From Bacteroidales bacterium Bact_19 (GTDB lineage Bacteria > Bacteroidota > Bacteroidia > Bacteroidales > ML635J-15), in the NCBI GenBank assembly GCA_001603595.1, contig LUZK01000072.1:1-62840 (forward strand): a stretch of DNA of 62,840 bases, in the 5' to 3' direction. The notes under the pieces were generated by a model. It saw only the letters and a program-made list of their open reading frames with translations. It ran no database searches and was not told where the DNA came from. Below, one piece after another: positions 19,821 to 61,511 of the stretch. How positions within the stretch are numbered: position 1 is the first letter of the stretch; every line of letters starts with the position of its first letter. Position numbers and translations under genes: made by a program.

Positions 19821-21008
19821 TTAATTTATCTGTTTCAACGAGTTCCAGATACTCCAGTTTTCATTTCCCCATTCGTGATATATATGCAGCAATACAGGAT
19901 TGAAAATGGTCTTAAATCCGTCTTTTGTATAACCTTTTTCAGGACACCAATCTATCAGATTATTTTCGTATTCTGTAATCCAATTAAATTCTTCGGGCAG
20001 GGTAGGATGATTTTGTAATCCAAATTTCCAAACGCTTAATGCAAGTGTGCCCTGATCTCTGGTCTTAGTATATGGATTTGAAAATTCTTTTATTGTTTGT
20101 TGATGCCAGTAGTTTAAAAATTCATCGGAGCTATCGTCAAAAAGGAAAACTCCTCCATTCCAGTGTTGCCAATTTTCGGGGATTGTGATTTTATATTCTT
20201 TTTTTACATAATCAATAAGGTGATTACATTTGGGAGCTTTAAATTCAAATTTTTTACCTTCTTTAGTTTCCCAATAATTTCCCTCTTTGTTAAATCTGAT
20301 ACAGCTGGTTCCCCAAAGTTTTTTTTCATAATACGGATAGTCGAATAATATAATTTCGTTATCCTTATTAAACCAGCATTTTGTTTTTTTATCAAACCTG
20401 TATCCTATAAGTGTAAAATCTTTTAAGGGTAAAACATACCTTTTGGTAAGATAGAAAATATTTTTGAAAAAGTATTTAAAAGGACTTTCCCGGTATGAAT
20501 TGAAAATTCCGAGAAGTTCTTCGGTTTGTTTTTTTATTTTCGGGTTTGTAAGATTAATTTTATTGAATAATTCTGATAGTTTTGCATTAAAGATTTCTTC
20601 TTCTTTGGCGTTTTCTTCAACACAATTACAATTCATAGCGTGTGGCGAAAATTCATTTATCGGGCAATGGTCTTTAGCAAAAGTTATGGGAGTTTGAAAA
20701 TAATCAAATATATTATCAACTTTTTTACTTATTGTTACAATGTCTCCATCCAGATAGCAATATAAATGACCTTTTTCGAGAAATTTGTATAACCCTGTTT
20801 TTATGTATATGCTTGCCTGATGATTGTCGAAATTTTCGGGGGTATCTATCTGAATAACTCTGTCATGCTCAATTCTTATTTCATTGCGTTTATGATCTGT
20901 GAGAACTATAATTTCATTTTTAGTAAACTTTTTTAAAAATTTTAAAGAAAAATTTAGTTCCGAAATATGTTCTTTTCCACCACAAACTACAAATACAAAT
21001 TTGTTCAT
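19821..21008 (-). CDS. GT8-like / nucleotide-diphospho-sugar glycosyltransferase
   Basis: Predicted cytoplasmic glycosyltransferase of GT-A fold, 395 residues. It begins with FVFVVCGG, as expected for a nucleotide-binding Rossmann start. The DxD metal/nucleotide-sugar motif is YLDGDIV near residues 90-96. The acceptor-site region HWNGGVFLFDD near 300 and the RDQGTLAL segment are typical of GT8-like or putative nucleotide-diphospho-sugar transferases. It is the last gene of an eight-gene operon running from the dehydratase at 28359. Its ATG overlaps the stop of the preceding radical SAM gene (TAATG). Donor and acceptor sugars are unknown. Confidence 0.75.
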   Translation of the reverse strand: MNKFVFVVCGGKEHISELNFSLKFLKKFTKNEIIVLTDHKRNEIRIEHDRVIQIDTPENFDNHQASIYIKTGLYKFLEKGHLYCYLDGDIVTISKKVDNIFDYFQTPITFAKDHCPINEFSPHAMNCNCVEENAKEEEIFNAKLSELFNKINLTNPKIKKQTEELLGIFNSYRESPFKYFFKNIFYLTKRYVLPLKDFTLIGYRFDKKTKCWFNKDNEIILFDYPYYEKKLWGTSCIRFNKEGNYWETKEGKKFEFKAPKCNHLIDYVKKEYKITIPENWQHWNGGVFLFDDSSDEFLNYWHQQTIKEFSNPYTKTRDQGTLALSVWKFGLQNHPTLPEEFNWITEYENNLIDWCPEKGYTKDGFKTIFNPVLLHIYHEWGNENWSIWNSLKQIN

Positions 21009-22318
21009 TAGTCTAAATTTTCGTAAGGATACAATTCGAAAAATTCTTTTGCAATATTAATAATTTCGACTTTAGTTTTACCTGCACTTAATAATTGATT
21101 TATTTTTGATTCATAATCAATATCTTGAATTTCTTTGTATTTTATCTTATCAACATACCACTTGTTCGGTAAATTTTTTAAAATCTCATTGTAAAATTCA
21201 GAATATTTTGTTTCTATTGTCCGCAGATTCGCAATGATTTCCTCTTTTAGAACAATAACAGACTCTGCTTCTCTAGATATGGAGTTTTGATGCCAATTTT
21301 TTAATTGTTGTAAAAATCCTTTGAAGGCATATTTATTTTTATCGTTTTTTAATTTAAGTTCTTTAATAATTTCACTGTAATATTCAACCAATTTTTGTAG
21401 TTCAGCTGAATTAAAATATTTTAAGCTTAAATTTTTCGGAAAATCTACAGTGTTAAAAAAAACTACACAATCTTTTTCATCAAAATACTTTATTATTTCA
21501 TGAATTTCGTATCGGTTAAATCTTATAGGACAAACAGAAATTTGTAATATCTGATTTTTTCTTTTTGTAATTGAATTAAAATATTCAAAGTTTTCAATAG
21601 TTTTTTCAAAATCAGCCTTTCTTCTGATTTTTTCATAAGTTTCTTTATTTACTGCATCAATTGAAATTCCAATTCGGAAATTTTTATTTTGCAAGAGTCT
21701 TTTAATTTCGTCGTTTAATATTGTGCCGTTTGTTTGAACGTAAATTTCACACTGCGGATTATTATCAAGTAGATAATACCATATTTTATAATATTCTTTG
21801 ATAAGAAATGGTTCCCCTCCGACAAAATTTGTAAATTTAAGTTTATTCAGTAGTGTTTTTATTTCTGAAAAAAAAGCTACATCGTAAATATTATCGGATT
21901 TCCCGGTTTTATCTCTCAGGCACATTATACAATCAAGATTACAAAAGTGCGAAAGTTCAAAATCAATTCTTTGTATTGTTTTTTTGTCGTAAGGATTGTA
22001 AATATTCAACATCAGTCCGGAAAAATTGTTTGCTTTAATATTTTCAAGGCAGGTTTTACATCCAAGCTGAAAATTACCGGCCGAAACATATTCTTGTTGA
22101 AGTTTACGTGGAATTGAGTTTAATATTTGCTTTAAATTATTTTCAGGATAATGTCCGTAATAGAAACTATTTTTATTTAAACAGCAAGCCGTAATTTGAC
22201 CATTGGGATGAAAATACAATGCACTGAAAGGAGCATTGCAAATTCTCTTGTTCGTAATTTTTGACAACTCCTCGCCGGTAAGATCGGTTTTAATATTTTT
22301 TCTTTTTCCGAAAATCAT
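21008..22318 (-). CDS. Radical SAM protein with N-terminal SPASM/twitch-like Cys module
   Basis: Radical S-adenosylmethionine enzyme of 436 residues, product unknown. The CX3CX2C cluster motif is C126-NLD-C130-IM-C133, followed by FVGGEPF (the GGE motif) and QTNGT. Ahead of it is a Cys-rich module with CNAPFSALYFHPNGQI (C27), ITACC (C45, C46) and LGCKTC (C87, C90). This is the sequence pattern normally found after the radical SAM domain in SPASM/twitch proteins, so an auxiliary Fe-S cluster bound at the N-terminus is likely. The C-terminal third is helical and charged. It is coupled to asnB by an ATGA overlap. Three paralogues lie at 29573, 30957 and 32319. No precursor peptide gene is visible. 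Confidence 0.85.
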   Translation of the reverse strand: MIFGKRKNIKTDLTGEELSKITNKRICNAPFSALYFHPNGQITACCLNKNSFYYGHYPENNLKQILNSIPRKLQQEYVSAGNFQLGCKTCLENIKANNFSGLMLNIYNPYDKKTIQRIDFELSHFCNLDCIMCLRDKTGKSDNIYDVAFFSEIKTLLNKLKFTNFVGGEPFLIKEYYKIWYYLLDNNPQCEIYVQTNGTILNDEIKRLLQNKNFRIGISIDAVNKETYEKIRRKADFEKTIENFEYFNSITKRKNQILQISVCPIRFNRYEIHEIIKYFDEKDCVVFFNTVDFPKNLSLKYFNSAELQKLVEYYSEIIKELKLKNDKNKYAFKGFLQQLKNWHQNSISREAESVIVLKEEIIANLRTIETKYSEFYNEILKNLPNKWYVDKIKYKEIQDIDYESKINQLLSAGKTKVEIINIAKEFFELYPYENLD

Positions 22319-24099
22319 TGACTAATCCATTTTTTATACCATAACTCAAGCACGGCAATTTTCCATAAACGCCAATGGTCTTTTTTTTGAAAATAATTTT
22401 CGACGGCTTCTTTATTTATTATATTATCTTTAATTAGATCAGAGTTTTGGAGAATTTTGCGATATTTTTCAAAATTCATATAATACTTATCAGGCCCTGT
22501 AAAACCTTGTTTTTTTCGGTTTAAAATTTTTCGGGGGACTTTTTTCTTAAGAATTTTCCTGATAACAGGCTTTTGAATTTTTTCGTCGAAATAAACTGAG
22601 GGATTAAGGCTGAGCATTAAATTACAAAGTTCGGTATTTAAAAAAGGCACTCTTACTTCGAGTGAATTAGCCATACTTGCTCTGTCAACTTTGGTGAGGA
22701 CTAATTCCCCCATAAAACATTTAATGTCAAGAATCTGAAATCTTTTTGGAGTTGGGATATCATCATTAAAAAACTTCTCATAAAAATAATTTGTATTTTC
22801 GGGAATGTATTGATGAAGTGCAGGGGAGAGTAACTGTTTCATTTCTTCGGTACTAAAGTCTCCCATTGCCATTGCTTTTGAATAGCTTTCTATATCGAAA
22901 TTATTAACAGGCAATTCCCATCCCCATTTTTTTGCATCTTTGATTTGTTTTCGTGAAATATGCCAGAGATATTTTCTGTGCCATGTATATCCGGCAAATA
23001 GTTCATCAGCTCCTTCTCCGGATAAAACTGCTTTGTTTTCTTTTCTTGCAAGTTGAGACACAAAGTATGTAGGTATTATAGATATATCTGCAATAGGTTC
23101 ATCATAGTAATACATGAGTTTTTCCAGCACATCAAAAGATGTTTCATCCAAAATCTGTTTGAAATGATTTGTCTTATATATTTCAGAAATTACTTCAGCA
23201 AATTGATCTTCGGAATTTTCCCAGTCCTTAAAACCAATCGAAAAGGTATTGAAATTTTTGCAATACTTTTTGTAAAAGTGAACCATTGCTGTAGAGTCAT
23301 AACCTCCGCTCAGAAAAGAACCAATAGGGACGTCGGACCGTATATGTATTTTTACTGAATCAGATAATATTCTCTCTATTTCTTTCACCAGAGCTTTAAA
23401 CCTAAAATTTTGATTTGAAATGTTGAATGAAAAGTATTCAGTTTTTTGAGAATTAAAATTATCGTCAATTTCTAAATATGTTGCAGGTTCAATTTTGTAG
23501 ATATTTTTTAAAATTGATTTAGGTGATGGAACATATCTGTATTTGAGAAAATCGCAAATTGCAGAGTAGTCTATTTCTCTTTTGATGTCAGGATTGATAA
23601 TGATAGCTTTTATTTCGGATGCAAAAATTATTTGATTTTCATTCTTGTAATAATACAGTGGTTTTATGCCAAACTTGTCACGAGCCAGAATAAGTTTTTT
23701 TTTGTTTTCATCCCAGAGGGCAAAAGCAAACATTCCTTCGAGCATAGAAATCATATCCGTTCCCCATTCTTCGTAGGCGTGTATCAATACTTCCGCATCA
23801 CTTCGTGACTTGAATTGATGTTTGTTTTCTGAAAGTTTTTGTTGGATTTCGGAGTAATTATAAATTTCTCCGTTAAGGGTTAGTAGGATAGTTCCGTTTT
23901 CGTTGCTGATAGGTTGAGCAGCATTTTCACTTAAATCTAAAAATGCCAAACGACGATGCCCAAGAGCTATATTGTGTTTTTCTGAATAATATGTTCCAAA
24001 TCCATCCGGACCGCGATGCTTTAGAGTATCTCGCATGGAGTTGAATAATTCTAAATCTATTTTTTTGGATTTACTCCACCATCCGGTTATGCCGCACAT
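22315..24099 (-). CDS. asnB: Asparagine synthetase-type glutamine amidotransferase
   Basis: Glutamine-hydrolysing amidotransferase of 594 residues. The N-terminal Ntn glutaminase starts with the nucleophile Cys2 (MCGITGWW) and contains RGPDGFGTY, GHRRLAFLDLS and NGEIYN. The C-terminal ATP-pyrophosphatase synthetase domain has FLSGGYDSTA (PP-loop) and SGEGADELFAGY. Enzymes of this family in surface polysaccharide loci often amidate uronic acids or other carboxylates instead of making free asparagine. Its position between a glycosyltransferase and a radical SAM gene suggests such a role here (inference). The start overlaps the GT2 gene by 29 bases. Confidence 0.92.
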   Translation of the reverse strand: MCGITGWWSKSKKIDLELFNSMRDTLKHRGPDGFGTYYSEKHNIALGHRRLAFLDLSENAAQPISNENGTILLTLNGEIYNYSEIQQKLSENKHQFKSRSDAEVLIHAYEEWGTDMISMLEGMFAFALWDENKKKLILARDKFGIKPLYYYKNENQIIFASEIKAIIINPDIKREIDYSAICDFLKYRYVPSPKSILKNIYKIEPATYLEIDDNFNSQKTEYFSFNISNQNFRFKALVKEIERILSDSVKIHIRSDVPIGSFLSGGYDSTAMVHFYKKYCKNFNTFSIGFKDWENSEDQFAEVISEIYKTNHFKQILDETSFDVLEKLMYYYDEPIADISIIPTYFVSQLARKENKAVLSGEGADELFAGYTWHRKYLWHISRKQIKDAKKWGWELPVNNFDIESYSKAMAMGDFSTEEMKQLLSPALHQYIPENTNYFYEKFFNDDIPTPKRFQILDIKCFMGELVLTKVDRASMANSLEVRVPFLNTELCNLMLSLNPSVYFDEKIQKPVIRKILKKKVPRKILNRKKQGFTGPDKYYMNFEKYRKILQNSDLIKDNIINKEAVENYFQKKDHWRLWKIAVLELWYKKWISQ

Positions 24100-25048
24100 A
24101 ATAATAGTCGTCTTTTAGCTGTTTTAGGTCTTCCTTTTGTGCCAGTTTTAGGTATTTTGAGTATTGTTTTAATAGTTTTTTATATTCTTTAAATGAATCT
24201 ATAGTTTTACAAGTTGATTTTAAAATCATTCTGTATTCATTGCAAATACTTCTGTAAATATCAGCTTTGTAGTAATTCCATGCAGGGTCTTTAAGCAGGT
24301 TCTCCAGAATACTGATATTGTTAAATTTAAAATCCGTAAGCCTATGTTTTTTTGAGTAACCTTCGGGGTGGTCTCTGTAAACTGACCAGGTTTGGTTGAA
24401 ATATTTGAATTTTGAATTTTTAATTATTTCGAGGTGCAAGGCCCAACTTAACGAAAATTCTTTTGCCCTATAACTATCCAGAAATGTTGTTAAATTTATA
24501 TTTCTAAAAACCAGTGAAGCTGTTGGAATTATATTTCTTTGTATTAAAGCCCATGGCATGAAATCCGATGAATATTTATTGAATTGAGAATAAGTTTTCC
24601 ATTGATTTTGAGTTTTTTTTTGATATTCATCATCTCCTGAGTTCTCTTGTTTAATTAAGGCATCGTGGAAACATCCGGCATAGTCGGGGTTATTTTCCAG
24701 AAAATCTATTTGCTCCTGCAACTTGTTATTGTAGCACCAATAATCATCTCCATCAAGAAATGTAATATATTTGGATTTGAGTTTGGTTGCAAGATATTTA
24801 GCGGATTTTATCGGACCTAAATTACTTTCATTACGATGGATGAAAATTAATTCAGGAAATCTTTTTTTATATTCTTCTAATAAAATATTGTATGTATTAT
24901 CATATGAATGATCATCTATTATGAATATTCGAAAATTATAAGTAGTTTTTTGATTTAAAATAGAATCAAGACATTCTGGAATAAAGTTAAAATGATTGTA
25001 GGATAAAATCCCAATATCTAAAATAAAGTCTTTTGATCGGGATTCCAT
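24071..25048 (-). CDS. Family 2 glycosyltransferase
   Basis: GT-A fold inverting glycosyltransferase of 325 residues. The N-terminal LDIGILSYNHFNFIPECLDS is the classic GT2 start, IIDDHSYDNT is the nucleotide-binding segment and FLDGDDYW near residues 96-103 is the DxD-type motif. No membrane segment is evident, so it is probably cytoplasmic or peripheral. It lies one base downstream of the acyl carrier protein gene in the same operon, which raises the possibility that the glycosyl acceptor is an acyl product of that module (inference). Confidence 0.88.
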   Translation of the reverse strand: MESRSKDFILDIGILSYNHFNFIPECLDSILNQKTTYNFRIFIIDDHSYDNTYNILLEEYKKRFPELIFIHRNESNLGPIKSAKYLATKLKSKYITFLDGDDYWCYNNKLQEQIDFLENNPDYAGCFHDALIKQENSGDDEYQKKTQNQWKTYSQFNKYSSDFMPWALIQRNIIPTASLVFRNINLTTFLDSYRAKEFSLSWALHLEIIKNSKFKYFNQTWSVYRDHPEGYSKKHRLTDFKFNNISILENLLKDPAWNYYKADIYRSICNEYRMILKSTCKTIDSFKEYKKLLKQYSKYLKLAQKEDLKQLKDDYYYVRHNRMVE

Positions 25049-25049
25049 T

Positions 25050-25295
25050 TCAGTCGTTTAATTTTCTTTTTACAAGTTTAATTATATCTCCAAAACAAGA
25101 AAGTTCTTCAAGCTCTTCATCCGTAATTTCGATATTGTATTTTTCTTCAATATCAATAATGATGTCCACTATGCGTGCGGAATTAATTTTTAAATCGTTT
25201 ATAATGCTTGATTTTTCATTAAAGCCTTCCCACACTTCTTCATTAAAAGTGTATTTCTTAAGAATTGCTATTAAATCATTTTTTATCTGTTCCAT
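25050..25295 (-). CDS. Acyl carrier protein
   Basis: Small acidic carrier protein of 81 residues with the four-helix pattern. The phosphopantetheine attachment site is probably S39 in DLKINSARIVDI; the usual motif is DSL, here it is N-S-A, so this is a divergent, specialised ACP and not the housekeeping AcpP. The downstream VDIIIDIEEKYNIEI recognition helix is conserved. It sits 41 bases after the ketosynthase gene and ends with a TGA stop two bases before GT2. It is expected to carry the acyl chain made by the two ketosynthases and the dehydratase. Confidence 0.88.
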   Translation of the reverse strand: MEQIKNDLIAILKKYTFNEEVWEGFNEKSSIINDLKINSARIVDIIIDIEEKYNIEITDEELEELSCFGDIIKLVKRKLND

Positions 25296-25336
25296 AATTA
25301 AATATTTATAAACAAAATTAACAAAATGCTATTAAA

Positions 25337-26626
25337 TTAAATAAACCTGGGATTGAATTTTTTTAAAATGATACAAGAATTCACATCCCCAAAACCGAAG
25401 CTTGCTTTAGCAACGTAGTTTAGATTGATGTTAGTTATAGTTTGTTGTGGTATTTTATTTTTATCCCATAATTTTTCTATTTCTGGATGTAGGTCTTCAC
25501 AGTTTAAGTTTGCGTGAACAAAATTATTATAAAGTTGTAACACAGCAGCAATTGTTTCTACTGCGCCAGCTGCACCAATCATGTGTCCAAACATAGATTT
25601 AGGAGCATTAATATATGGGTAGTAATCTGTTAATTCAAGTGCTTCTTTCCAGTTTTTGATTTCAAGTACGTCTGCTTTAGTACTTGTTAAATGTCCACTA
25701 ATAAGATCAATTTCGGAAAATTTGATTTTAGCTTCTTGCACTGCTTTACGAATACAATCAACAACTCTTTGAGGATTTGGGTAAGTCATTGTTCCTCCGT
25801 TACGTTGTCCACCTGAGTTAATTTCGGCACCTACAATTTCGGCATAAATTTTTGCATTTCTGTTTAGAGCGTGTTCAAGTTCCTCCAGGATTAATATACC
25901 GGCTCCTGCTGATGGGACAAATCCATTGGCAGAACCGCTCATGGGACGACTGGCTTTTTCAGGAGTATTGTTGTATTTTCGAGCCAATAATCGCATAGAA
26001 TCAAAACCTGCCCATGCAAAAGGAGAATATGGGTCTGTTCCGCCTGCTAACATAACTTTTGCTTTACCGAATTTTATCCTTTCATAAGCCATAATTACAG
26101 CTTCTAAGCCAGTAGAGCAAGCAGAAGAATTCACAGTATTTTGATTGGCAAAGCCTAATATTTTACTAATAGATGCAACTGATCCACTCGGCATCCAGTG
26201 TTCTATTATTTGACTACCTAACTTTTTTAAATTTCCTGAACTAATTAGTGGATACATTTTTCTTAGAAAGATCTCGATTCCACCAAAACAACTTCCAATA
26301 ATACTTCCAAAATCAATTAAAACTTCATTCTCGTTAAAATTTTCAAAATGAAATCCGGCTAACTCATAAGCTTCTAAGGCTGTAATGACTGCATACAATA
26401 TAGAAATATCTGCTTCCGAAATTTCATATTTAGCAAGAAGTTTATCATATTTTGTACTTTTAATTTCAGGGACTCCGCCAACACAACAATTAAAATTGTA
26501 ATTTTCAAGCTCTGGAATGTATTTGATACCAGAAATCCCATTTTTTAATGATTTTAAAAAATCATTAATATTTAATCCATTAGGAGATATAACACCCAAA
26601 CCGGTGATGACTACTCTTTTTTTCAT
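25337..26626 (-). CDS. Beta-ketoacyl-ACP synthase, second of a pair
   Basis: FabF-type ketosynthase of 429 residues. The catalytic triad is intact: C170 in SSACSTG, H312 in SGHLTSTKAD and H348 in KSMFGHMIGAAGA. Two usually conserved segments differ: the NAHGT motif reads SGHLT, and the C-terminal GFGGTN loop reads GFGDVN. The same departures occur in the neighbouring ketosynthase, so the two form a divergent sister pair. The start is placed at 26626 because ATGAAAAAAAGAG there overlaps the stop of the upstream ketosynthase as ATGA; the longer frame to 26650 is unlikely. Both enzymes keep the active Cys, so a classical inactive chain-length factor is not evident. Confidence 0.88.
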   Translation of the reverse strand: MKKRVVITGLGVISPNGLNINDFLKSLKNGISGIKYIPELENYNFNCCVGGVPEIKSTKYDKLLAKYEISEADISILYAVITALEAYELAGFHFENFNENEVLIDFGSIIGSCFGGIEIFLRKMYPLISSGNLKKLGSQIIEHWMPSGSVASISKILGFANQNTVNSSACSTGLEAVIMAYERIKFGKAKVMLAGGTDPYSPFAWAGFDSMRLLARKYNNTPEKASRPMSGSANGFVPSAGAGILILEELEHALNRNAKIYAEIVGAEINSGGQRNGGTMTYPNPQRVVDCIRKAVQEAKIKFSEIDLISGHLTSTKADVLEIKNWKEALELTDYYPYINAPKSMFGHMIGAAGAVETIAAVLQLYNNFVHANLNCEDLHPEIEKLWDKNKIPQQTITNINLNYVAKASFGFGDVNSCIILKKFNPRFI

Positions 26627-27897
26627 CTTATATTTTTTAACAACAAACAAGCATTTACATCTCCAAAACCAAAATTAGCTTTTATTGTATAATCTATATC
26701 AACATTATCTATTCTTTTAAATGGGATACTATTTTTTGAAATTGTTTTCTCTATTTCGGGATGTAAATCTTCACAATTAATTGATGCATGAATAAATTTA
26801 TTTCTCATTTGTATTATGCAAGCAACAATTTCTATAGCTCCACATGCTCCCATTGTGTGCCCTATTAAAGATTTTGTTGAATTTATATATGGAAAATTTT
26901 GTTTATTTAAATTTAGAGCTTCTTTCCATGCTTTGATTTCTAAAGAATCTGCTTTTGTTCCGGTCAAATGTCCTGAAATATATTTTATTTCTTTTGGAGA
27001 GATATTAGATTTTTTAATAGTAATTTCAATACAATTTTTTAATTTCTCATAATTTGATGCAGTCATACTTCCTCCATTTCTTTGACCTCCTGAATTTACA
27101 TGGGAGCTAATTATTTCGGCAAGTATATTAGCTCCCCTTTTTTGAGCATGCTCAAGCTCTTCTAAAATAAGTATTCCTGCACCTTCTGCAGGAACAAAAC
27201 CATGCGATGAAGCACTCATCGGGCGACTAGCTTTTGTTGGTTTATCATTATGATTGGGAGTAATAATTTTCATAGCATCCATAGTGCTCCAATAATACTT
27301 AGAATATGGTTCATATCCTCCTGCAATTATAATTTTATTATCTCCATTTTTTATTCTAAAAAAAGCTTCTGCAATGGCTTCTGTTGAACTGGCACAAGCC
27401 AGAGAATTTGATATAACTCTTCCTTTGGTACCAATAATTCCGGATAAAATTGCAGACGGACTGGAAAATATTACTTGCTCAAAAGCATAACTTCCTAGTT
27501 TTAAATGTTTCCCCTTATCAACATAGGGAATTACTTTGTCATGCCAAACATCTATAGCTCCTGTGGTGGAACCTATTATAATATCTGGATTTAATTTTTC
27601 TAATATTTCAGATCCTATGTTAAAACCAGAATTATTTAATGCTTCTTCTGTAGCTTGAACTAATAAAAATGTGCTGCGACTTATTATTGGAATATTCAAT
27701 ATGGGATATTTATTTCGTAATTCATCTATATTTAAAGAACAAATTCCCCCAATTTTGCACCTAAAATTAAGCTCTACTAGTTCATCTATTTTTTTTATTC
27801 CGGATGTCGAATGATATAATAAATTATGGAATTCTTTTAATCCCGTCGCTCCAGGAGCAATAACTCCCATTCCTGTTATCACAACTTTATTATTCAT
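26623..27897 (-). CDS. Beta-ketoacyl-ACP synthase, first of a pair
   Basis: FabF-type ketosynthase of 424 residues with catalytic C168 (SLACASST), H310 (SGHLTGTKAD) and H347 (KSLIGHTMGACGA). It shares with its neighbour the motifs VNSGGQRNGG, INCEDLHPEIEK and GFGDVN, which are not those of housekeeping FabF. The pair probably arose by duplication. It lies six bases after the dehydratase gene and overlaps the next ketosynthase. No ketoreductase or malonyltransferase gene is present in the operon; these would have to come from general fatty acid synthesis. The product may be an unsaturated acyl chain, by analogy with aryl polyene and similar type II systems (inference). Confidence 0.88.
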   Translation of the reverse strand: MNNKVVITGMGVIAPGATGLKEFHNLLYHSTSGIKKIDELVELNFRCKIGGICSLNIDELRNKYPILNIPIISRSTFLLVQATEEALNNSGFNIGSEILEKLNPDIIIGSTTGAIDVWHDKVIPYVDKGKHLKLGSYAFEQVIFSSPSAILSGIIGTKGRVISNSLACASSTEAIAEAFFRIKNGDNKIIIAGGYEPYSKYYWSTMDAMKIITPNHNDKPTKASRPMSASSHGFVPAEGAGILILEELEHAQKRGANILAEIISSHVNSGGQRNGGSMTASNYEKLKNCIEITIKKSNISPKEIKYISGHLTGTKADSLEIKAWKEALNLNKQNFPYINSTKSLIGHTMGACGAIEIVACIIQMRNKFIHASINCEDLHPEIEKTISKNSIPFKRIDNVDIDYTIKANFGFGDVNACLLLKNIR

Positions 27898-27903: not shown

Positions 27904-28359
27904 CTAATCTTTTTTTATCAACAATTGAGCAGTTAGTGTAGAACATAATTCATTTTTTGAATTGTATAATTCTACTTCTGATTTTAATATTCCTTTTCGA
28001 AGGTATATTTTTTTAGATTTAGCAATCAATCTATCTTCTACGAAAACTTGCTTAATAAAATTTGCTTCAACAAAGGTCAATATCGGATGATATAAAATGT
28101 TTTTTTTGTATAAGCCATCAAGGTAAACTAAATGACAAACTAAGCCAATTTGTCCCATCATCTCAATGAGGATAACTCCGGGAGTAACTTGAATGTGCTT
28201 AAAATGAGCATTAACAAAAAATTCATTTTGCTTAAAAGTATAATATCCCCAAATAGATGAATCATTTACTTTTATAATTTCATCTACAAATAAAAAATCT
28301 TTTCTATAAGGCAAACTATCTATAATTTTTTTGCTCAATTCTTTTATCTCAGCACTCAT
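27904..28359 (-). CDS. FabZ/FabA-like hotdog hydroxyacyl-ACP dehydratase
   Basis: Hotdog-fold protein of 151 residues resembling 3-hydroxyacyl-ACP dehydratases. LPYRKDFLFVDEI is the FabZ-like N-terminus. The catalytic pair appears as H52 in NAHFKHIQVTPG (equivalent to the GHFPGxPxxPG region) and E66 in LIEMMGQIG. The GHFP Gly is replaced by Ala and the following Pro by Lys, so it is a divergent member. It is the first gene of the eight-gene minus-strand operon and sits 74 bases from the divergent radical SAM/SPASM gene. Confidence 0.83.
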   Translation of the reverse strand: MSAEIKELSKKIIDSLPYRKDFLFVDEIIKVNDSSIWGYYTFKQNEFFVNAHFKHIQVTPGVILIEMMGQIGLVCHLVYLDGLYKKNILYHPILTFVEANFIKQVFVEDRLIAKSKKIYLRKGILKSEVELYNSKNELCSTLTAQLLIKKD

Positions 28360-40189: not shown

Positions 40190-40206
40190 AATAGTCTTAT
40201 TTTGAG

Positions 40207-40237
40207 CAAAATTAGTAAATTTGCATAAAACTAACAA
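40207..40237 (-). promoter_or_regulatory. Promoter for the GT39-type membrane protein gene
   Basis: On the minus strand TTG (40237-40235), a 20-base spacer and TAATTTTG (40214-40207). An overlapping plus-strand TAAATTTG (40216-40223) could serve the divergent gene at 40262, though without a matching -33 box. The two -7 boxes are only one base apart. Confidence 0.55.
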
Positions 40238-48690: not shown

Positions 48691-48698
48691 TGTTTTTA

Positions 48699-53321: not shown

Positions 53322-54136
53322 AGCAAATCAGTAATTTGTTTTTCGATTTTCTTAAATACTAACACAGCACTTACAAACAAAATTAGAATAATTCCAAAAC
53401 CGATTAAATATTCTGCATCAGGATTTGACCCGCCAAATAAAAACCATCTGAAATATTCTGCAACTCCTGCTATTGGATTTATGTATAAAATAAATCTGAA
53501 GTTTTCCGGAACTATTGTCCCCGGATAAAATACCGGTGTAATGAAAATCAGAAAATTTGTAATTTGAATAATAATTTGGCTTAAATCACGCACAAATAAA
53601 GATAATATTGCCGACCACAAGCCCACAGCTAATCCACAAACTATTAACCAAACCAGCAGAATAGGTATGAATAACCAAAAGATGTTAAACTGCATTCCGA
53701 AAGCTGTAAACAAAATGACAAAAATTATAAAACCTGCTCCAAAATCAACTAATCCCGGAAGAATCTTTGCCAACACTAAATTTATTCTTGGAAAGTAAAG
53801 TTTGTTTATTAGATGCTCAGATTGTATTAAAATTCCGCTACTGTTGCCTACAAGATACGAAAAATACTGCCAGACTATTATCCCCGGTAATGCAAATACA
53901 GGATATGGAATATCGCCTGTGTTAATTTTTATAGCTTTTCCAAAGATTAACCAGTAAATGGCTAATCCTAACAAACTTTGAATTATGCTCAGAAATAGAC
54001 CTGAATAATTTTGGGCATATTTATTTTTTATCTCACCAACGGCAACAGAATATGAAAAATATCTGAAATCGAAAATCTGTTTTAGATATTCCGACAAGCT
54101 GATATTATTATTTTGGGAGATTATCTTTCTTTCCAT
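53318..54136 (-). CDS. wzm: ABC-2 type polysaccharide export permease, Wzm type
   Basis: Inner-membrane permease of about 272 residues with six TM segments, matching the Wzm/ABC-2 transporter family. The N-terminal helix YLKQIFDFRYFSYSVAVGEI and the segment NKYAQNYSGLFLSIIQ are typical, as is SLFVRDLSQIIIQITNFLIF in the middle. With Wzt it exports a finished polysaccharide or glycolipid on a lipid carrier. ATG 54136 overlaps the epimerase stop as TGATG; a GTG one codon earlier is an alternative start. Confidence 0.9.
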   Translation of the reverse strand: MERKIISQNNNISLSEYLKQIFDFRYFSYSVAVGEIKNKYAQNYSGLFLSIIQSLLGLAIYWLIFGKAIKINTGDIPYPVFALPGIIVWQYFSYLVGNSSGILIQSEHLINKLYFPRINLVLAKILPGLVDFGAGFIIFVILFTAFGMQFNIFWLFIPILLVWLIVCGLAVGLWSAILSLFVRDLSQIIIQITNFLIFITPVFYPGTIVPENFRFILYINPIAGVAEYFRWFLFGGSNPDAEYLIGFGIILILFVSAVLVFKKIEKQITDLL

Positions 54137-55086
54137 CACCCGTTAATATTATTTTTGTACCATTCAATAAACAATTTTACCCCATTTTCTATATTGATTT
54201 TGGGATTAAATCCTAAAACTTCTTTAGCTTTACTATTATCTGCCCAGGTAATTTCAGATTCTCCTTTAATAGAATCTACATATTCAATGTTGGCTCTGGA
54301 ATTTGTATAGTTTTCAAAAAGTTTAATTATTTCAGAAAGTTTTATGGGGTTTCCGTTACCCAGATTAAAAATTTCAAATTTTGATTTTTTATATTCAAGA
54401 GCAGATATTATTCCCGAAATTATATCATCGACATAAGTATAATCTCTGGCAGAGCTGCCGTCACCAAAAATTTTTAATTTTTCTCCTTTGAAAATGCTCC
54501 GGGCAATTTTATTCATAACTAGGTCAGGGCGAAGTCGAGGTCCGTAAACGGAAAAAAAACGTAATGAAATAAAGTTTAGTTCATATTTTTCGGAATATTC
54601 TTTACCGAGTTTTTCTGATAATAGCTTTGTTTGAGCATAAGGACTAATAGGATTCAGAGAATTGTAATTTTCTTTAAATGGAGTAGGTGAGTTGCCGTAA
54701 ATGCTTGATGATGATGCAAAGATAAATTGTTTAATGTCCTTTTTTACGGCTAATTCCAGTATATTCTTTGTGCCAACAACATTAATTTCTTCATATCCTA
54801 CCGGATATTTCAAGGAATATCTTACACCGGCTTTTGCAGCTAAATGAATTATGGCATCGTAATTATCGTCAATTAAAGATTCAATATTTGAAAGGTCTTT
54901 TATGTCTGCTTCAAAAAATTTGAAGTTTTTATTTTGTTGAGCAATAGTGATATTATTGCGTTTTATTTCCGGGTTATAGTAATTATCAAAGTTGTCAATA
55001 CATAGAACTTTGTGATTGTTGTTCAACAGATAATCACATAGATTGCTCCCTATAAAGCCGGCTCCTCCTGTAACAATTAATTTCAT
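54136..55086 (-). CDS. NAD-dependent sugar epimerase/dehydratase (UDP-glucuronate 4-epimerase-like)
   Basis: Extended short-chain dehydrogenase acting on a nucleotide sugar. The NAD-binding TGGAGFIGSNL is at 6-16, and the catalytic Tyr150 and Lys154 are in SPYAQTKLL with the preceding SSSSIYGN. SVYGPRLRPDLVMNKI and GDGSSARDYTYVDDI are typical of UDP-glucuronate or UDP-N-acetylhexosamine 4-epimerases. The frame extends to 55113, but ATG 55086 (MKLIVTGG) is the natural start, giving 316 residues. It is the first gene of the exporter operon. If it makes UDP-galacturonate, the AsnB enzyme could amidate that uronic acid (inference). Confidence 0.88.
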   Translation of the reverse strand: MKLIVTGGAGFIGSNLCDYLLNNNHKVLCIDNFDNYYNPEIKRNNITIAQQNKNFKFFEADIKDLSNIESLIDDNYDAIIHLAAKAGVRYSLKYPVGYEEINVVGTKNILELAVKKDIKQFIFASSSSIYGNSPTPFKENYNSLNPISPYAQTKLLSEKLGKEYSEKYELNFISLRFFSVYGPRLRPDLVMNKIARSIFKGEKLKIFGDGSSARDYTYVDDIISGIISALEYKKSKFEIFNLGNGNPIKLSEIIKLFENYTNSRANIEYVDSIKGESEITWADNSKAKEVLGFNPKINIENGVKLFIEWYKNNING

Positions 55087-55226
55087 AATTAAAAGAAAAA
55101 TACAAATATACATTAAATTTTTCCATTACATACAGGCGAAAAATCTTTTACAAGAGAAAATTAACAAAATAACTTTGATAATAAACAAAAGGAAAAAAAA
55201 TTATAAATGGAGTTTTAAATTAGGTT

Positions 55227-56442: not shown

Positions 56443-56465
56443 TGATTTAAAAATCCTATTTATCC

Positions 56466-57305
56466 ATGAAAATAAAAATTGGAATGGCTCAATTACTTGT
56501 GGAGGGAGGCGAACCTGAAAGAAATTTCAATAGGGCTGAAAAACTAGTTGTAGAAGCTGCTCAACAAAATTGCGATTTGGTTTTGTTACCCGAAACTATT
56601 GATTTTGCATGGACACATCCCTCTGTTTATAACGAGGCTCAACCAATACCCGGAAAATTTAGCTATATATTTACCGAACTTGCAAAGCAACATAATATAT
56701 ATATATGCGTCGGATTAAGTGAACGTAGTAACGAAAAAATTTATAATACTGCCATACTAATTAATAAATATGGTGATATAATACTCAAATATTCTAAGAT
56801 AAATTTGCTCGAAGTGGAGCATCCTTTTTATGAAGTTGGAACTAAGTTGGAGGTTGTTGATACTGAGTTTGGAAAAATTGGAGTGAATATTTGTGCAGAT
56901 AATTATTCCGGAGCTTTGTCCATTGGTCATACACTGGGAAGAATGGGAGCCAATATTTTGTTATCACCTTCATCATGGACAGTTGACTATTGCGTAACGG
57001 AGGAAATGGACCCATATAAGGATAAATGGAAAAAGCCGTTGCAATCATTAGCTTCGCTGTTTAATATGCTTGTAGTAAGTACAACATCTGTTGGCTATAT
57101 TGTTGGCGGACCATATGAAGGCAAAAAAATGGTAGGTTGTTCTCTTGCTGTTAATAAAAATGGGATTATTAAAGAAGGTCATTTTAATGAATTTGCTGGA
57201 GAATTAGTTGTTTTTGAAACAGATGTGCCTAAAAATAAATTTAAAGGTACACAAATTTCAGATTATTTAAGCAGCCGAGGAGTGGATTATTATTCTAAAA
57301 TGTAG
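56466..57305 (+). CDS. Carbon-nitrogen hydrolase (nitrilase superfamily)
   Basis: Amidase-type enzyme of 279 residues with an intact catalytic triad: E43 in LLPETIDF, K111 in YSKINLLE and C143 in VNICADN. Members hydrolyse non-peptide C-N bonds; the glutaminase domain of NAD synthetase belongs to this superfamily. The next gene, five bases downstream, is a PP-loop ATPase. The pair could therefore act as a split glutamine- or amide-dependent amidotransferase, with this protein releasing ammonia (inference). It is the first gene of a four-gene plus-strand operon. Confidence 0.88.
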   Translation: MKIKIGMAQLLVEGGEPERNFNRAEKLVVEAAQQNCDLVLLPETIDFAWTHPSVYNEAQPIPGKFSYIFTELAKQHNIYICVGLSERSNEKIYNTAILINKYGDIILKYSKINLLEVEHPFYEVGTKLEVVDTEFGKIGVNICADNYSGALSIGHTLGRMGANILLSPSSWTVDYCVTEEMDPYKDKWKKPLQSLASLFNMLVVSTTSVGYIVGGPYEGKKMVGCSLAVNKNGIIKEGHFNEFAGELVVFETDVPKNKFKGTQISDYLSSRGVDYYSKM

Positions 57306-57310
57306 CGTTT

Positions 57311-58510
57311 ATGGATAAAAGGGTAGTGATTGTTAACGGGAAACCAACAAATTTTGAATATCAGGTATGTAGTCGTTGTGTTCAGGATTCCACGGTACCG
57401 GGCATAAAATTCGATAAATACGGAGTATGCAACTTTTGCCATATACATGATAAACTTGAGAAAATATTTCCAAATGGAGAAGCTGGGCGGAAAATTCTCG
57501 ATAAATACATTGAAAAAATAAAAAAATCCGGACAGGGGAAAAAATACGATTGTGTTGTTGGAATTAGTGGTGGTAGGGATAGTACTTACCTATTATATTT
57601 AACTGTAAAAGAATTTGGATTGCGTCCTCTTGCAGTTCATTTTAATGATGGCTTTGATAACCCGGTGGCAGGAGAAAATATGGTTAAAGCCACACGCAAA
57701 CTTGGTGTAGAGTTGCGAACCATTTCAAGCGACTGGAGAGAAGCTAAGGAGTTAAAAATTGATTTTCTCAAAGCCTCGGTGCCGGACCTGAATATGGGAA
57801 CAGATATCGGAATAGCATCATCATTATACGGAGTAGCATGTAAAGAAAATCTTAAATATATTTTAATAGGTCAATCTTTTCGTACCGAAGGGATTAAACC
57901 TCTTTCGTGGTCATTTTTCGATGGGCGTTATCTAAAATCAGTTCATAAAAAATTTGGTAAAACTCCATTACGAAAATGGAAACCCGAAGACCCTGGTTTT
58001 AACTTTGGAGTTAAAGAACTATTGTATTATTCATTGATAAAAGGGATTCGTACCATTACGCCCATGTATTACTGGGATTACAACAGATCCGCAGCGACTG
58101 AGTTAATACAAAAAGAATTGGATTGGGTTTATCCCGGAGCTCATTATTATGATGATTTGTATCATAGTTTGATTAAGTATGTTCATAGGGTAAAATTCAA
58201 TATTGATATGAACATGAACAGCGATTCCGCACTTGTTCGCTCAGGTCAGATGACGCGTGAAACAGCTCTTGAAAGGGCTCATGGCATTTATGCAATTGAG
58301 GACCCTAAGGTAATTGATTTATGTATTAAACGACTGGGGCTTACAAGAGAACAATTTGATGAATACATGTCATATCCTCCAAAAACTTTTAGAGATTATG
58401 ATACAATTTATAATCTTATAAGATTATTCAAATTTCCTATTTATGTTTTTTCGAAATTAAATTTGATACCACGAATTACTTATGATAAATATTTTAATGT
58501 AGGCAAATAA
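57311..58510 (+). CDS. PP-loop ATPase, N-acetyl sugar amidotransferase-like (WbpG/PseA family)
   Basis: Protein of 399 residues. The N-terminal Cys-rich segment has C20-x2-C23 and C40-x2-C43 (CSRCVQDST, GVCNFC), as in WbpG/PseA-like N-acetyl sugar amidotransferases. The pyrophosphatase loop is ISGGRDSTY at 85-93. These enzymes adenylate an acyl or keto group and replace it with an amino group from ammonia, giving acetamidino sugars in known systems. HisH/HisF-like partners are usual; here a nitrilase-family protein is next to it instead. Its stop overlaps the carbamoyltransferase start as TAATG. Confidence 0.85.
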   Translation: MDKRVVIVNGKPTNFEYQVCSRCVQDSTVPGIKFDKYGVCNFCHIHDKLEKIFPNGEAGRKILDKYIEKIKKSGQGKKYDCVVGISGGRDSTYLLYLTVKEFGLRPLAVHFNDGFDNPVAGENMVKATRKLGVELRTISSDWREAKELKIDFLKASVPDLNMGTDIGIASSLYGVACKENLKYILIGQSFRTEGIKPLSWSFFDGRYLKSVHKKFGKTPLRKWKPEDPGFNFGVKELLYYSLIKGIRTITPMYYWDYNRSAATELIQKELDWVYPGAHYYDDLYHSLIKYVHRVKFNIDMNMNSDSALVRSGQMTRETALERAHGIYAIEDPKVIDLCIKRLGLTREQFDEYMSYPPKTFRDYDTIYNLIRLFKFPIYVFSKLNLIPRITYDKYFNVGK

Positions 58511-60132
58511 TGATAGTATTAGGAATCAATGGAGGTGTACGTCTTGGCTATCAAGACGTTTCGGCATCATTACTAAAGGATGGTAAAGTACTTGTTGCTA
58601 TTGAAGAAGAAAGACTGAACAGGATAAAATTTTCTCCCGGACAGTTATCAGAATTATCTGTTTATAAATGTCTTGAATATTCTGGATTAACGATTCGTGA
58701 TGTTGATGTAGTTGCTTGCCATGGCAGCACATGGGGAACGGTTTTTGAAAATATTCTTCGTTCATATTTTACCGATAATTTTGGATATTGTCCCGAGTTA
58801 TATTTTGTTCATCATCATACTGCTCATGCTGCTAGTGCGTACTACGGAAGCGGGTTTGACGAGGCTTTAATTATTACTATGGATGCTTCTGGAGACGGTG
58901 TTTCAACTCAAGTATGCACTGGAAAAAACGGTAAAATAGAAATTATCGAAAGATTTAGCCGACCTAACTCACTTGGAATTTTTTATTCTATAATTACCCA
59001 ATTTTGCGGATTCAGACGCGACAGCGATGAATACAAACTTATGGGAATGGCTGCCTACGGCAATAAACATGCTTATGATTTCAGCAATATTCTCGATTAT
59101 AGAAACGGACAATTATTTTTTAACGAAGAATTTTTAAAACCTATTAAGCCTGGAGAATCACAACCTACTCGACAGGAAAAAGCCTACAGCAAGAAACTCA
59201 CGGAAATGCTCGGTAAAGCCCGCCTACGGAACGAAGAAATTACGCAGAAATATTATGACATTGCTGCTTCTGCACAATATCAATTCGAGAAGGTTATTTT
59301 GGCGATGGTTGAAGACTTTCATAAACGCACAGGATTGAGAAAAATTTGTTTGGCTGGCGGAGTTGCATTGAATTGCCTTGTTAATCAAAAAATAATGAAC
59401 CTTGATTTCATTGATGAGATATATGTTCAGCCTGCTACCGGAGATTCCGGAATTTCTTTAGGTGCTGCAATGTATGCTTCGGTACAAAAAGGTTATATTC
59501 CCGAACCTATCGAAACAGCTTTACTAGGACCGGATTTTACCAACGAACAAATTAAATCTGTTCTCGACGAAAATTTAATTAAATATAAATATATTGACGA
59601 TCCGGCCGAAGTTGCTGCCGAACTGATTTCCCAAAACAAGGTTATAGGATGGTTTCAAGGACGAATTGAATTTGGTCCCAGAGCTCTGGGAGCTAGAAGC
59701 ATTCTTGCAAATCCTGCTATGCCTGACGTTAAAAATATTTTAAACAAGAAAATAAAATTTCGTGAACCTTTCCGTCCGTTTTGCCCATCTGTAACAGAAG
59801 AGGATAGCAGAGAATACTTTGTTGGAAAAGCAGAAAAAGCTCCTTTTATGAATATTACCTTTGATACTACACAAAAAGCTAAGGATTTTACTCCCGGAAT
59901 TGTTCATGCCGATGGCACATCAAGAATACAAACTGTTAATAAGGAACTTCAGCCTCTGTATCACTCGCTATTGTGTAAACTAAAAGAAAAAACCGGTCAT
60001 CCCGTAGTTGTGAATACAAGTTTTAACACAAATAACGAACCTATAGTTTTTAGTCCTGCAGATGCTGTGGCTACATTCTACCGTAGTGGGCTTGAGGCTC
60101 TTGTTATTGGAAATTATCTGATTGAAAAATGA
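58510..60132 (+). CDS. Carbamoyltransferase (NodU/CmcH/TobZ family)
   Basis: Enzyme of 540 residues that transfers a carbamoyl group from carbamoyl phosphate, via carbamoyl-AMP, to a hydroxyl of a sugar or natural product. The N-terminal Kae1-like domain has LGINGGVRLGYQD, VHHHTAHAASAYY (metal-binding His residues) and TMDASGDGVST. The C-terminal YrdC-like domain has GWFQGRIEFGPRALGARS, typical of the family, and FRPFCPSV. The length is a little short of many members (about 570-600) but both domains are complete. It overlaps the following radical SAM gene as ATGA. Confidence 0.93.
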   Translation: MIVLGINGGVRLGYQDVSASLLKDGKVLVAIEEERLNRIKFSPGQLSELSVYKCLEYSGLTIRDVDVVACHGSTWGTVFENILRSYFTDNFGYCPELYFVHHHTAHAASAYYGSGFDEALIITMDASGDGVSTQVCTGKNGKIEIIERFSRPNSLGIFYSIITQFCGFRRDSDEYKLMGMAAYGNKHAYDFSNILDYRNGQLFFNEEFLKPIKPGESQPTRQEKAYSKKLTEMLGKARLRNEEITQKYYDIAASAQYQFEKVILAMVEDFHKRTGLRKICLAGGVALNCLVNQKIMNLDFIDEIYVQPATGDSGISLGAAMYASVQKGYIPEPIETALLGPDFTNEQIKSVLDENLIKYKYIDDPAEVAAELISQNKVIGWFQGRIEFGPRALGARSILANPAMPDVKNILNKKIKFREPFRPFCPSVTEEDSREYFVGKAEKAPFMNITFDTTQKAKDFTPGIVHADGTSRIQTVNKELQPLYHSLLCKLKEKTGHPVVVNTSFNTNNEPIVFSPADAVATFYRSGLEALVIGNYLIEK

Positions 60133-61511
60133 AATTTTTAGTTCTAAATTTACCTTATCAAAGTAAAATAATAAGAAAATATTCTTGCTCTTATTTTGCC
60201 AGAGGATTCTTATATCCACCTGTGGAATTGGTTAGGCTGTCAACAATTATTGAAGAAAATAGTTTTCCTGGTGATGAGGTGTTATTTTATGATGCAATTG
60301 TAGAAAATCATGACGAAGATAATTGTATCGAAAAAATAAAAAATATTCAACCGGATTATATTTTCACCATGACCTCGATTGATTTTATTTCTTCTGAATT
60401 AAAATTTATTGAAAAATTAAGACTTTGTGTAAAAAATCCATTAATAATAATAGGTTATATCCCTTCTTTATATCCTGATGATTTTTCAAAGTATGGTGTT
60501 GTTCTGGATGGTAACTTCGAAACAATTGTTTATAATTCATTACTTATAATTAAAGCTGAACAAAAAGCTGATTTTATCGAAATAATAAAAAATGAAAGAT
60601 TAAAAAGAACGGAGCATAATCCTGATTTGATAGTTCATTATAATTTGAAATTCATTAAGAATTATAGATACAAAGAACTTTTTTCAAAAGGTAATACAGG
60701 TTTCACTTATTGGTCTTTCGGATGTCCTTATTCCTGTAGTTTTTGCATAAAAACATACAACCAACACAAAGTTAGTTTTAGAAAAACCGAAAATATTTTG
60801 CAAGAAATAAAATATTTTGCCGAGAATGGAATAAAAAATATAAGATTGCTTGACGACAACTGTACTCTCAAAAAAACGCTTCTGAAAGAAGTTTTAAAGT
60901 TTCAATCTGAAAATGGATTGAAATTTAACTATTACGGATTAACTCGTATTGATTTGCTTGATAATGAGGTTGTGGATTTACTGATAGATTTGAATTTTAA
61001 GCATATTATGATTGGGCTCGAAACCATAAACGAAAATTCGGGAAGAGAATACAATAAAATATTTAACATTGATTTTGAACAGACAAAATTAATACTGAAA
61101 AAACTTAGGAAAAATAAAGTTGAAATTAGTATTTTCATGCTTTTTAATCCTTTAACAGAACAATTTACAGATATTAAAAACACATTGAGTTATTTGCGTA
61201 ATTTGCCTGTAAGTTTTGCCTCTTTATCTTATGTAATTCCATATCCGGGAACAGATATTTTTAAGAAAAATGAGCAAAATATCGAAGTGCAAAATTATCC
61301 GGAATTTCGTTGGAGATGGAAAAAAGATTATTATCTCAATTTGAAAAAAAATGAAACATATTTTTTGAAAAACTTTTATTTTACCAATCCTGATAGATTT
61401 ATTAATTTAATAAGATTATTTTTAAAATATCCATCGCAGGCTTTTGATATATTTTTCGATAGCATGAAGTACCTTTTCACATCGAACAAGGAGCGGGAAG
61501 ATTATTTTTAA
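60129..61511 (+). CDS. B12-binding-type radical SAM protein, divergent
   Basis: Protein of 460 residues. The N-terminal domain (about 1-150) has the Rossmann layout of the B12-binding group (YPPVELVRLSTIIEE, IIIGYIPSLYPDDF), but the usual GG-H-T and GEGE motifs are changed (LDGNFE), so cobalamin binding is less sure than in the other members. The radical SAM motif is C199-PYS-C203-SF-C206, then RLLDDNCTLKKTLL and IMIGLETINENSG. It ends the nitrilase/amidotransferase/carbamoyltransferase operon and probably modifies the same product. Confidence 0.82.
   Translation: MKFLVLNLPYQSKIIRKYSCSYFARGFLYPPVELVRLSTIIEENSFPGDEVLFYDAIVENHDEDNCIEKIKNIQPDYIFTMTSIDFISSELKFIEKLRLCVKNPLIIIGYIPSLYPDDFSKYGVVLDGNFETIVYNSLLIIKAEQKADFIEIIKNERLKRTEHNPDLIVHYNLKFIKNYRYKELFSKGNTGFTYWSFGCPYSCSFCIKTYNQHKVSFRKTENILQEIKYFAENGIKNIRLLDDNCTLKKTLLKEVLKFQSENGLKFNYYGLTRIDLLDNEVVDLLIDLNFKHIMIGLETINENSGREYNKIFNIDFEQTKLILKKLRKNKVEISIFMLFNPLTEQFTDIKNTLSYLRNLPVSFASLSYVIPYPGTDIFKKNEQNIEVQNYPEFRWRWKKDYYLNLKKNETYFLKNFYFTNPDRFINLIRLFLKYPSQAFDIFFDSMKYLFTSNKEREDYF

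Follow-up and report, generated by a model that had tools for sequence, protein, structure and literature searches.

Twelve radical SAM enzymes in a probable O-antigen-like biosynthesis and export locus of Bacteroidales bacterium Bact_19

What might a bacterium build with twelve radical S-adenosylmethionine (SAM) enzymes encoded in a single locus? Such enzymes act on aminoglycosides, peptides, lipids, and cofactors. The question was raised by a 62,840-nucleotide stretch of Bacteroidales bacterium Bact_19 (contig LUZK01000072.1, assembly GCA_001603595.1; hereafter the window), in which positions 19821 to 61511 hold these enzymes among glycosyltransferases (GTs), an acyl cassette, amidotransferases, and a Wzm/Wzt exporter. 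An earlier note on this DNA had proposed a heavily modified, exported glycan or glycolipid as the product. This proposal gained support from the recurrence of the block in related genomes, an extended Wzt, and the co-occurrence of one radical SAM class with one GT family, while the chemical product itself is what we infer. An exported modified glycan or glycolipid is a very probable product, and the whole is probably an O-antigen-like locus for biosynthesis and export, of mosaic makeup and apparently accessory, with the pathway proposed below.

The twelve CX3CX2C proteins named in the earlier note were borne out. All twelve positions are the low coordinate of an open reading frame (ORF) in the window, and all twelve translations carry the motif and match PF04055 above its cut-off. 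The neighbors said to be intermixed with them were confirmed as well (AsnB-like, GT2, acyl carrier protein, ketosynthase, FabZ-like, Wzm/Wzt, WbuX, and carbamoyltransferase). The whole genome (3.07 Mb in 186 contigs) contains 41 PF04055 matches, 40 of them over the cut-off, and 12 of these genes lie inside 40.5 kb, compared with 0.54 expected (binomial tail 1.5e-13) under uniform placement, which is a crude null as bacterial genes group by function. Four of the enzymes have an N-terminal twitch domain (NF033640 type), one has a C-terminal SPASM domain, and seven are of the B12 kind. Among the matches listed, which for some proteins are the best 25 families, none of the twelve reaches the NCBIfam cut-off of a characterized family. 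Chance scatter of housekeeping genes, an outcome that would have counted against the earlier note, was not seen and is ruled out by this density together with the recurrence of the block in other genomes. Recent tandem duplication was rejected too, with 30–35% mutual identity among the four twitch enzymes versus 44–90% to their reciprocal best hits in three related genomes (G004, G012, and G018); judged by their sequences, the twelve are old paralogues.

The four twitch enzymes are encoded at 21008..22318 (−; PF04055 72.6 bits plus an N-terminal SPASM match), 29573..30892 (−; PF04055 60.8 bits), 30957..32309 (+), and 32319..33665 (+; PF04055 62.5 bits). Their scores against NF033640 (N_Twi_rSAM) are 136.6, 149.9, 171.5, and 133.6 bits, respectively, and the cut-off of 170 is passed by 30957 alone; by this profile 30957 is a member, and the other three, at 134–150 bits, are close relatives. 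In all four proteins a SPASM/twitch-like domain with four cysteines precedes the CX3CX2C barrel. In the alignment of 71 sequences used with the structure (the four window proteins and 67 of 137 listed N-twitch sequences), C30, C48, C87, and C90 of the twitch domain and C129, C133, and C136 of the radical SAM motif are invariant throughout (71/71). A profile from a second alignment, of 41 enzymes (four from the window and 37 relatives' sequences), ranked BtrN first among the sequences of the PDB with a whole-sequence E of 1.5e-12. The match consists of two segments in swapped order: the barrel at 121–226 aligns to BtrN 4–104 and the twitch domain at 25–100 to BtrN 162–241, the latter dominating the score (35 bits, i-Evalue 6e-8). 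The AlphaFold model of 30957 is confident, with a predicted local distance difference test score (pLDDT) of 93.3 and a predicted template modeling score of 0.90. BtrN oxidizes an aminocyclitol and has an auxiliary cluster with four cysteine ligands, and SPASM and twitch domains are described as C-terminal extensions in the same review (PMC9012708). As far as their sequences tell, the window enzymes look like circularly permuted versions of the radical aminocyclitol dehydrogenase BtrN, which is a new observation. Three further N-twitch genes were found in the window's own genome, two on contig C153 near 39–42 kb (L050, L051) and one on C162 near 23 kb (L053).

The second protein of interest is encoded at 19821..21008 (−) and has no Pfam, NCBIfam, or PDB sequence match. 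Its AlphaFold model (pLDDT 91.5) was best matched by Foldseek to UGGT, XXYLT1, WbbM, glycogenin, and LgtC (E 3e-5 to 6e-4), with low TM-scores of 0.21–0.43 to the query. D87 and D89 are invariant in 21/21 aligned proteins of this type, namely the window protein and 20 of 26 GT sequences, six double-length ones being left out. According to the model, 19821 resembles a GT-A-like glycosyltransferase, and its family is the partner of the N-twitch enzymes. The double-length cases (L072, L088, L095, L098, L124, and L134) have the 19821-type GT as the N-terminal part of a 670–703 aa protein, and in the three scanned (L072, L098, and L124) the C-terminal half contains a region that matches the glycosyltransferase family PF04488.

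Of the 295 genomes searched within the order, 11 have a full-length twitch gene and 12 the 19821-type GT, with an overlap of 11 genomes from six families (hypergeometric P 4e-19, computed as if the genomes were independent). With the window's own genome set aside, the GT is present in 10/10 twitch genomes and a twitch gene in 10/11 GT genomes. At most six candidates were scored per genome in both searches, and eight of 19 genomes (G107, G151, G162, G167, G172, G203, G210, and G275) were left out of the count because their matches start no earlier than profile position 93 and do not cover the twitch domain.

A wider set of N-twitch loci was collected with one peptide pattern over genome contigs, of which the best 80 matches were kept, corresponding to 77 loci. 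Genes in these loci were counted with custom hidden Markov models at >40 bits; eight loci lie on contigs also used for training, and many loci are incomplete, so that all counts are lower bounds. By name, 67 of the 77 listed loci belong to Bacteroidota, one to an "uncultured bacterium", and nine carry other labels (four Delongbacteria, one of them an isolate, and one each of Neomarinimicrobiota, Kuenenia, Ruegeria, Proteobacteria, and Actinomycetota). At least 46/77 loci contain more than one twitch gene, and at least 25/77 contain three or more. The 19821-type GT was found in at least 26/77, AsnB in at least 15/77, a B12 radical SAM enzyme in at least 15/77, and a ketosynthase in at least 7/77; for comparison, 14 whole-genome GT matches were obtained in the 295 genomes. 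The distance to a twitch gene is at most 200 bp for 15 of the 26 GT genes and at most 2 kb for 24 of them. One locus from Bacteroidales SZUA-560 (L074) again carries the GT, twitch, AsnB, GT2, two ketosynthases, FabZ, a SPASM and a B12 radical SAM enzyme, PglD-like, DegT, and Wzt. Two loci were observed separately: L108, in a record labeled as a Kuenenia stuttgartiensis metagenome-assembled genome and thus outside Bacteroidota by its label, has a twitch enzyme, AsnB, and the 19821-type GT together, and L048 (G197, contig C130, 11.5–19.5 kb) has five tandem radical SAM genes with 26–28% identity to 33662 behind three twitch genes.

Does the block as a whole recur? The B12 radical SAM enzyme 44549, used as a marker, was matched at E <1e-100 in 4 of 26 genomes of the same genus, the window's own (G000), G004, G012, and G018, and was not found at this level in the other 22, many of which gave weaker matches to other B12 radical SAM enzymes. 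On this distribution the block looks accessory. It is present and largely collinear in all four genomes, so the search for co-occurring orthologues suggested in the earlier note was successful, and the opposite finding, genes that never co-occur elsewhere, was not made. G004 keeps the window's gene order, and 25 of the 30 proteins with a reciprocal best hit (19821–61511) share 75–96% identity. G018 keeps the order as well, without a reciprocal best hit to 35148, 40262, 41769, 45991, 49540, 55516, or 60129 and with a DUF6056-like protein (28%) beyond the carbamoyltransferase. Identical gene order in all four genomes was not borne out, with the acyl cassette displaced in G012; the G012 block also lacks the nitrilase/WbuX/carbamoyltransferase trio. 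G000 and G004 have the flanks on both sides in common (L19 on one), and on the GT side G012 and G018 have a different set of flanking genes in common. Sequence and gene order mark two units as exchangeable, the acyl module and the nitrilase/WbuX/carbamoyl module. Twelve is itself not exceptional for this class: the PF04055 counts in the four blocks are 12, 11, 11, and 11, and a second block in G018 (contig C98, 10.7–41.7 kb; L028, L029, L032) has 19 PF04055 matches in 31 kb. Five of these 19 lie in proteins of about 310 aa, and the C98 block also holds another Wzm/Wzt pair and a GT-C-like protein. At the edge of the window's locus, 14839–19761 (+) encodes a protein of 1640 aa whose C-terminus carries a secretion sorting domain (PF18962).

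The acyl cassette comprises an acyl carrier protein (25050..25295, −; PF00550 22.6 bits, cut-off 20.8), a FabF-type ketosynthase with Cys178 and two histidine motifs (25337..26650, −; PF00109/PF02801), a second FabF-type ketosynthase with Cys168 recognized by Pfam and sequence (26623..27897, −), a FabZ/FabA-like dehydratase (27904..28359, −; PF07977 39.9 bits over 23, below the cut-off of the NCBIfam FabZ models), and the C-terminal SPASM radical SAM enzyme (28434..29558, +; PF04055 77.4 and PF13186 35.5 bits). The last is far below the AhbD and NirJ cut-offs (146.1 vs 500 and 108.4 vs 515.45 bits). The ketosynthase motifs were located by eye, following patterns that we take to mark the cysteine and histidine active site; a pair of ketosynthase and chain-length factor was rejected, as the active-site cysteine is present in both. 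The ketosynthase, dehydratase, and SPASM enzyme change together between genomes. Their identities are 72/62/74% between G004 and G012 and 64/74/70% between G000 and G018, but only 49/46/55% between G000 and G004, where the other matched locus proteins share 75–96% except 41769 (53%) and 32319 (67%). In G012, the cassette sits between 35148 and 32319, not between 29573 and 24071. From these comparisons the ketosynthase/FabZ set and the SPASM enzyme are exchanged as one cassette, which is also new, and therefore 28434 would belong to the acyl branch. In the G000/G018 version the cassette is accompanied by 33662 and the second ketosynthase, in place of which a short-chain dehydrogenase-like protein was read by eye in G004 and G012; with four genomes only, 33662 is perhaps linked to the cassette, and by the joint exchange perhaps to the acyl branch as well.

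The seven enzymes of the B12 kind are encoded at 33662..35158 (−; PF04055 79.2 bits), 40262..41785 (+), 41769..43157 (+), 43125..44552 (−), 44549..45994 (−), 45991..47403 (−), and 60129..61511 (+; PF04055 68.6 bits). The five middle ones have both PF04055 and PF02310, and the first and last, without a PF02310 match, align to BchE for the greater part of their sequence (33662 over residues 20–384). Identity within the group is 18–40%. The three at 43125, 44549, and 45991 are HpnJ/BchE-like, yet the cut-offs of HpnJ (577.6), BchE (481.35), and TIGR04072 (360) were not reached, the best scores being 207.1 (the 207 bits of 43125 against HpnJ), 192.5, and 137.1 bits. The best PDB sequence matches of 44549 are 9ccb, TokK, AprD4, CysS, and OxsB. 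Of the three other blocks, only that of G004 yielded an orthologue of 60129.

The locus could also be read as that of an unusual lipid or polyketide glycolipid, with most radical SAM enzymes acting on an acyl chain bound to the carrier protein and the sugars forming a head group. The carrier protein, two ketosynthases with active-site cysteine, and FabZ adjoin the SPASM enzyme and exchange with it, the B12 enzymes match the ladderane-associated TIGR04072 with up to 137 bits, and type II fatty acid synthesis (FASII) clusters of anammox bacteria with four putative radical SAM enzymes and many FabF paralogues have been described (section on these clusters in PMC2649909). However, the TIGR04072 cut-off is reached by 0/12 of the window's enzymes, the N-twitch genes track a glycosyltransferase family and have a ketosynthase in just at least 7/77 listed loci, and the exporter is of the O-antigen type. 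We consider a lipid of this kind unlikely.

The remaining genes concern sugar assembly, tailoring, and export. An AsnB-like glutamine amidotransferase (22315..24099, −; TIGR01536 481 bits over 267) and a GT2 glycosyltransferase (24071..25048, −; PF00535 80.6 bits) are followed, beyond the cassette, by an SGNH/GDSL-like protein (35148..36287, −; PF00657 26.0 over 23.6 bits), a PglD-like left-handed-helix acyltransferase (36256..36843, −; PF17836, PF00132), a DegT/StrS sugar aminotransferase (36840..37949, −; PF01041 303 bits), and a GT-C-like membrane glycosyltransferase (38015..40237, −; PF13231 32.1 over 26.1 bits). A UbiA-family prenyltransferase (48699..49553, −; PF01040 65.8 bits), a 183-aa protein without family match (49540..50091, −), and a large DUF6056-like membrane protein (50078..52108, −; PF19528 26.1 bits, just below the cut-off of 27) lie before the exporter. 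The latter consists of Wzt, an O-antigen-type ABC exporter ATPase with C-terminal extension (52086..53321, −; PF00005), and the ABC-2 membrane subunit Wzm (53318..54139, −; PF01061 38.8 bits). Residues 29–369 of Wzt align to 24–358 of the 404-aa chains 8dku (E 1.9e-57) and 7k2t (E 4.7e-57), presumably Wzt of the A. aeolicus O-antigen exporter with its carbohydrate-binding domain, and the alignment to these full-length chains extends past the ATPase domain. An NAD-dependent nucleotide-sugar epimerase/dehydratase follows (54136..55113, −; PF01370 212 bits), and a trio on the plus strand is formed by a nitrilase-superfamily C–N hydrolase (56466..57305; PF00795 119 bits, with nitrilase matches in the PDB), a WbuX-type N-acetyl sugar amidotransferase (57311..58510; TIGR03573 226.1 over 203.2 bits), and a carbamoyltransferase (58510..60132; PF16861, PF02543). 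In this trio the nitrilase may feed ammonia to WbuX instead of HisH/HisF. The trio (56466–60132) was also seen in G004, G018, and the Chitinophagales locus L100.

What the sequences show is the gene set, the type of exporter, the recurring block, the reversed domain order of the twitch enzymes compared with BtrN, and their co-occurrence with the 19821-type GT. From this gene content we infer the individual reactions as follows. The GT-A-like 19821 and the GT2 enzyme 24071 would assemble a carrier-linked oligosaccharide in the cytoplasm. Each of the four twitch enzymes would then oxidize a particular ring hydroxyl of the glycan by two-electron dehydrogenation, possibly leading to epimerization, and the B12 enzymes would alter sugar or acyl carbons through carbon–carbon changes, for example by C-methylation. 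An acyl group would be made by the carrier protein, the two ketosynthases, and the FabZ-like dehydratase, and modified by the SPASM enzyme 28434 (perhaps also by 33662); the PglD-like enzyme would attach it to an amino sugar that DegT provides. The AsnB-like enzyme, the nitrilase with WbuX, and the carbamoyltransferase would contribute amides, amidines, and carbamoyl groups. Finally, Wzm/Wzt would export the product after its recognition by the Wzt extension, and the UbiA and GT-C proteins may serve further sugar transfer outside. Regarding single steps, the chances that the acyl group ends up on the amino sugar are about even, those for sugar hydroxyls as the target of the twitch enzymes, drawn by analogy with BtrN, are slightly poorer, and C-methylation by the B12 enzymes is tentative. 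More speculative still, the permuted BtrN-like enzymes and the one GT-A family might form a widespread team that rewrites sugar rings during or after assembly, with B12 enzymes adding carbon. Each extra twitch or B12 gene would then stand for one more site-specific edit, and the radical SAM arrays (up to 19 in one block) for a structure code of surface glycans in uncultured Bacteroidota and some other phyla.

Several observations weigh against the exported-glycan pathway or its parts. Taken alone, the barrel segment matches BtrN only weakly (15 bits, i-Evalue 0.05–0.08), and a Foldseek search with the whole 30957 model, which as run preserves sequence order, gave SPASM enzymes, viperins, MoaA, NifB, and others, and no BtrN, among its 50 listed matches. 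G220 has a 19821-type GT without a detected twitch gene. In a draw of 296 genomes from the phylum, the only full-length twitch genome besides the window's own (G518) has no 19821-type GT, and with one other twitch genome alone this test said little on the link. As twitch-linked loci, several of them in the tested genomes, supplied the GT profile, the link concerns this GT subfamily. Of the 77 listed loci, Wzm or Wzt was found in only at least 19, and any of the 19821-type GT, GT2, AsnB, Wzm, and Wzt in at least 38. Family scans gave no initiating glycosyltransferase among the locus ORFs; two PF00953 genes (one on C185 and one on C175; one of the two may be MraY) and four PF04932 genes sit on other contigs. 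CbiC and the MetH B12 domain had no match in the genome and a cobalamin adenosyltransferase is present, so that B12 would have to be salvaged. G018 is without orthologues of 40262, 41769, and 45991, and in the G012 copy Wzt, 45991, 38015, and 32319 are split, a possible sign of decay or misassembly. Finally, 47454..48699 (−) of the window is a frame-broken remnant of an SGNH-like gene, found as tblastn pieces in three frames (the longest with 76% identity over 340 aa) and read as SGNH-like by eye, of which G004 and G012 have intact 422-aa copies at the same place; the break is either decay or an assembly error of the metagenome bin.

Another reading is that several independent surface-glycan or lipid modules lie side by side, namely GT/twitch/AsnB, the acyl cassette, the B12 block with the exporter, and the nitrilase/WbuX/carbamoyl trio. 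Their histories do differ, with the trio missing from the G012 block, 60129 present just in G000 and G004, a smaller B12 block in G018, and an acyl cassette that moves and exchanges. Nevertheless, GT/twitch/AsnB, the acyl cassette, the B12 genes, UbiA, and the exporter stay together in four genomes despite different flanks, and we regard unconnected modules as even less likely than a lipid. A ribosomal peptide matured by SPASM/twitch and B12 enzymes with the AsnB-like protein is very improbable: many NCBIfam matches are maturases of ribosomally synthesized and post-translationally modified peptides and the relatives of AsnB include lasso-peptide cyclases, but no maturase model reached its cut-off and no peptidase was among the scanned locus ORFs. 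An O-antigen-like locus for an exported, modified glycan or glycolipid stays our preferred reading.

Such a surface-glycan locus class, built on many radical SAM enzymes, would represent extensive, as yet unexplored sugar chemistry with oxidized, C-branched, and amidated sugars. The twitch enzyme/GT pair is a concrete starting point for tests, and the exchange of the cassette shows which radical SAM enzyme belongs to the acyl branch.

How does the locus compare with known systems? The earlier note knew of no described pathway with this inventory, and no description of such a Bacteroidota locus class or of the twitch/GT pair was found in the open-licence literature of PubMed Central; radical SAM genes among lipooligosaccharide (LOS) and rfb genes have already been published. 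The 36-kb plasmid of Brachyspira hyodysenteriae has at least six radical SAM genes among 31 plasmid genes, lying among glycosyltransferase, epimerase, and rfb genes and read as potential LOS biosynthesis or glycosylation genes (gene table and related text of PMC4267127). Several radical SAM genes among glycosyltransferase and rfb genes are thus common to both, a likeness by description, whereas the table rows covered contain no ketosynthase, acyl carrier protein, or Wzm/Wzt. The anammox FASII clusters, proposed for ladderanes, similarly have radical SAM enzymes beside FabF paralogues, but the section describing them mentions neither an O-antigen exporter nor a twitch/GT pair (PMC2649909), and the window has no TIGR04072-level match. 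For the B12 group, HpnJ/BchE-type enzymes rank among the best NCBIfam matches, although the window proteins are far under the family cut-offs. With BtrN of butirosin biosynthesis, the twitch enzymes share the radical SAM barrel and one four-cysteine twitch auxiliary cluster, both matched by sequence, but the twitch domain is C-terminal to the barrel in BtrN and N-terminal in the window enzymes. The block also resembles Wzm/Wzt O-antigen loci, in which Wzm and an extended Wzt, glycosyltransferases, DegT/PglD-type tailoring, and a patchy, mosaic distribution are found as well. The window block differs from these by its twelve radical SAM enzymes, the cassette of acyl carrier protein, two ketosynthases, and FabZ, the UbiA protein, and the absence of a recognized initiating enzyme. 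With this set of shared and additional genes, the locus is related to the ABC-exporter surface-glycan loci, a known kind.

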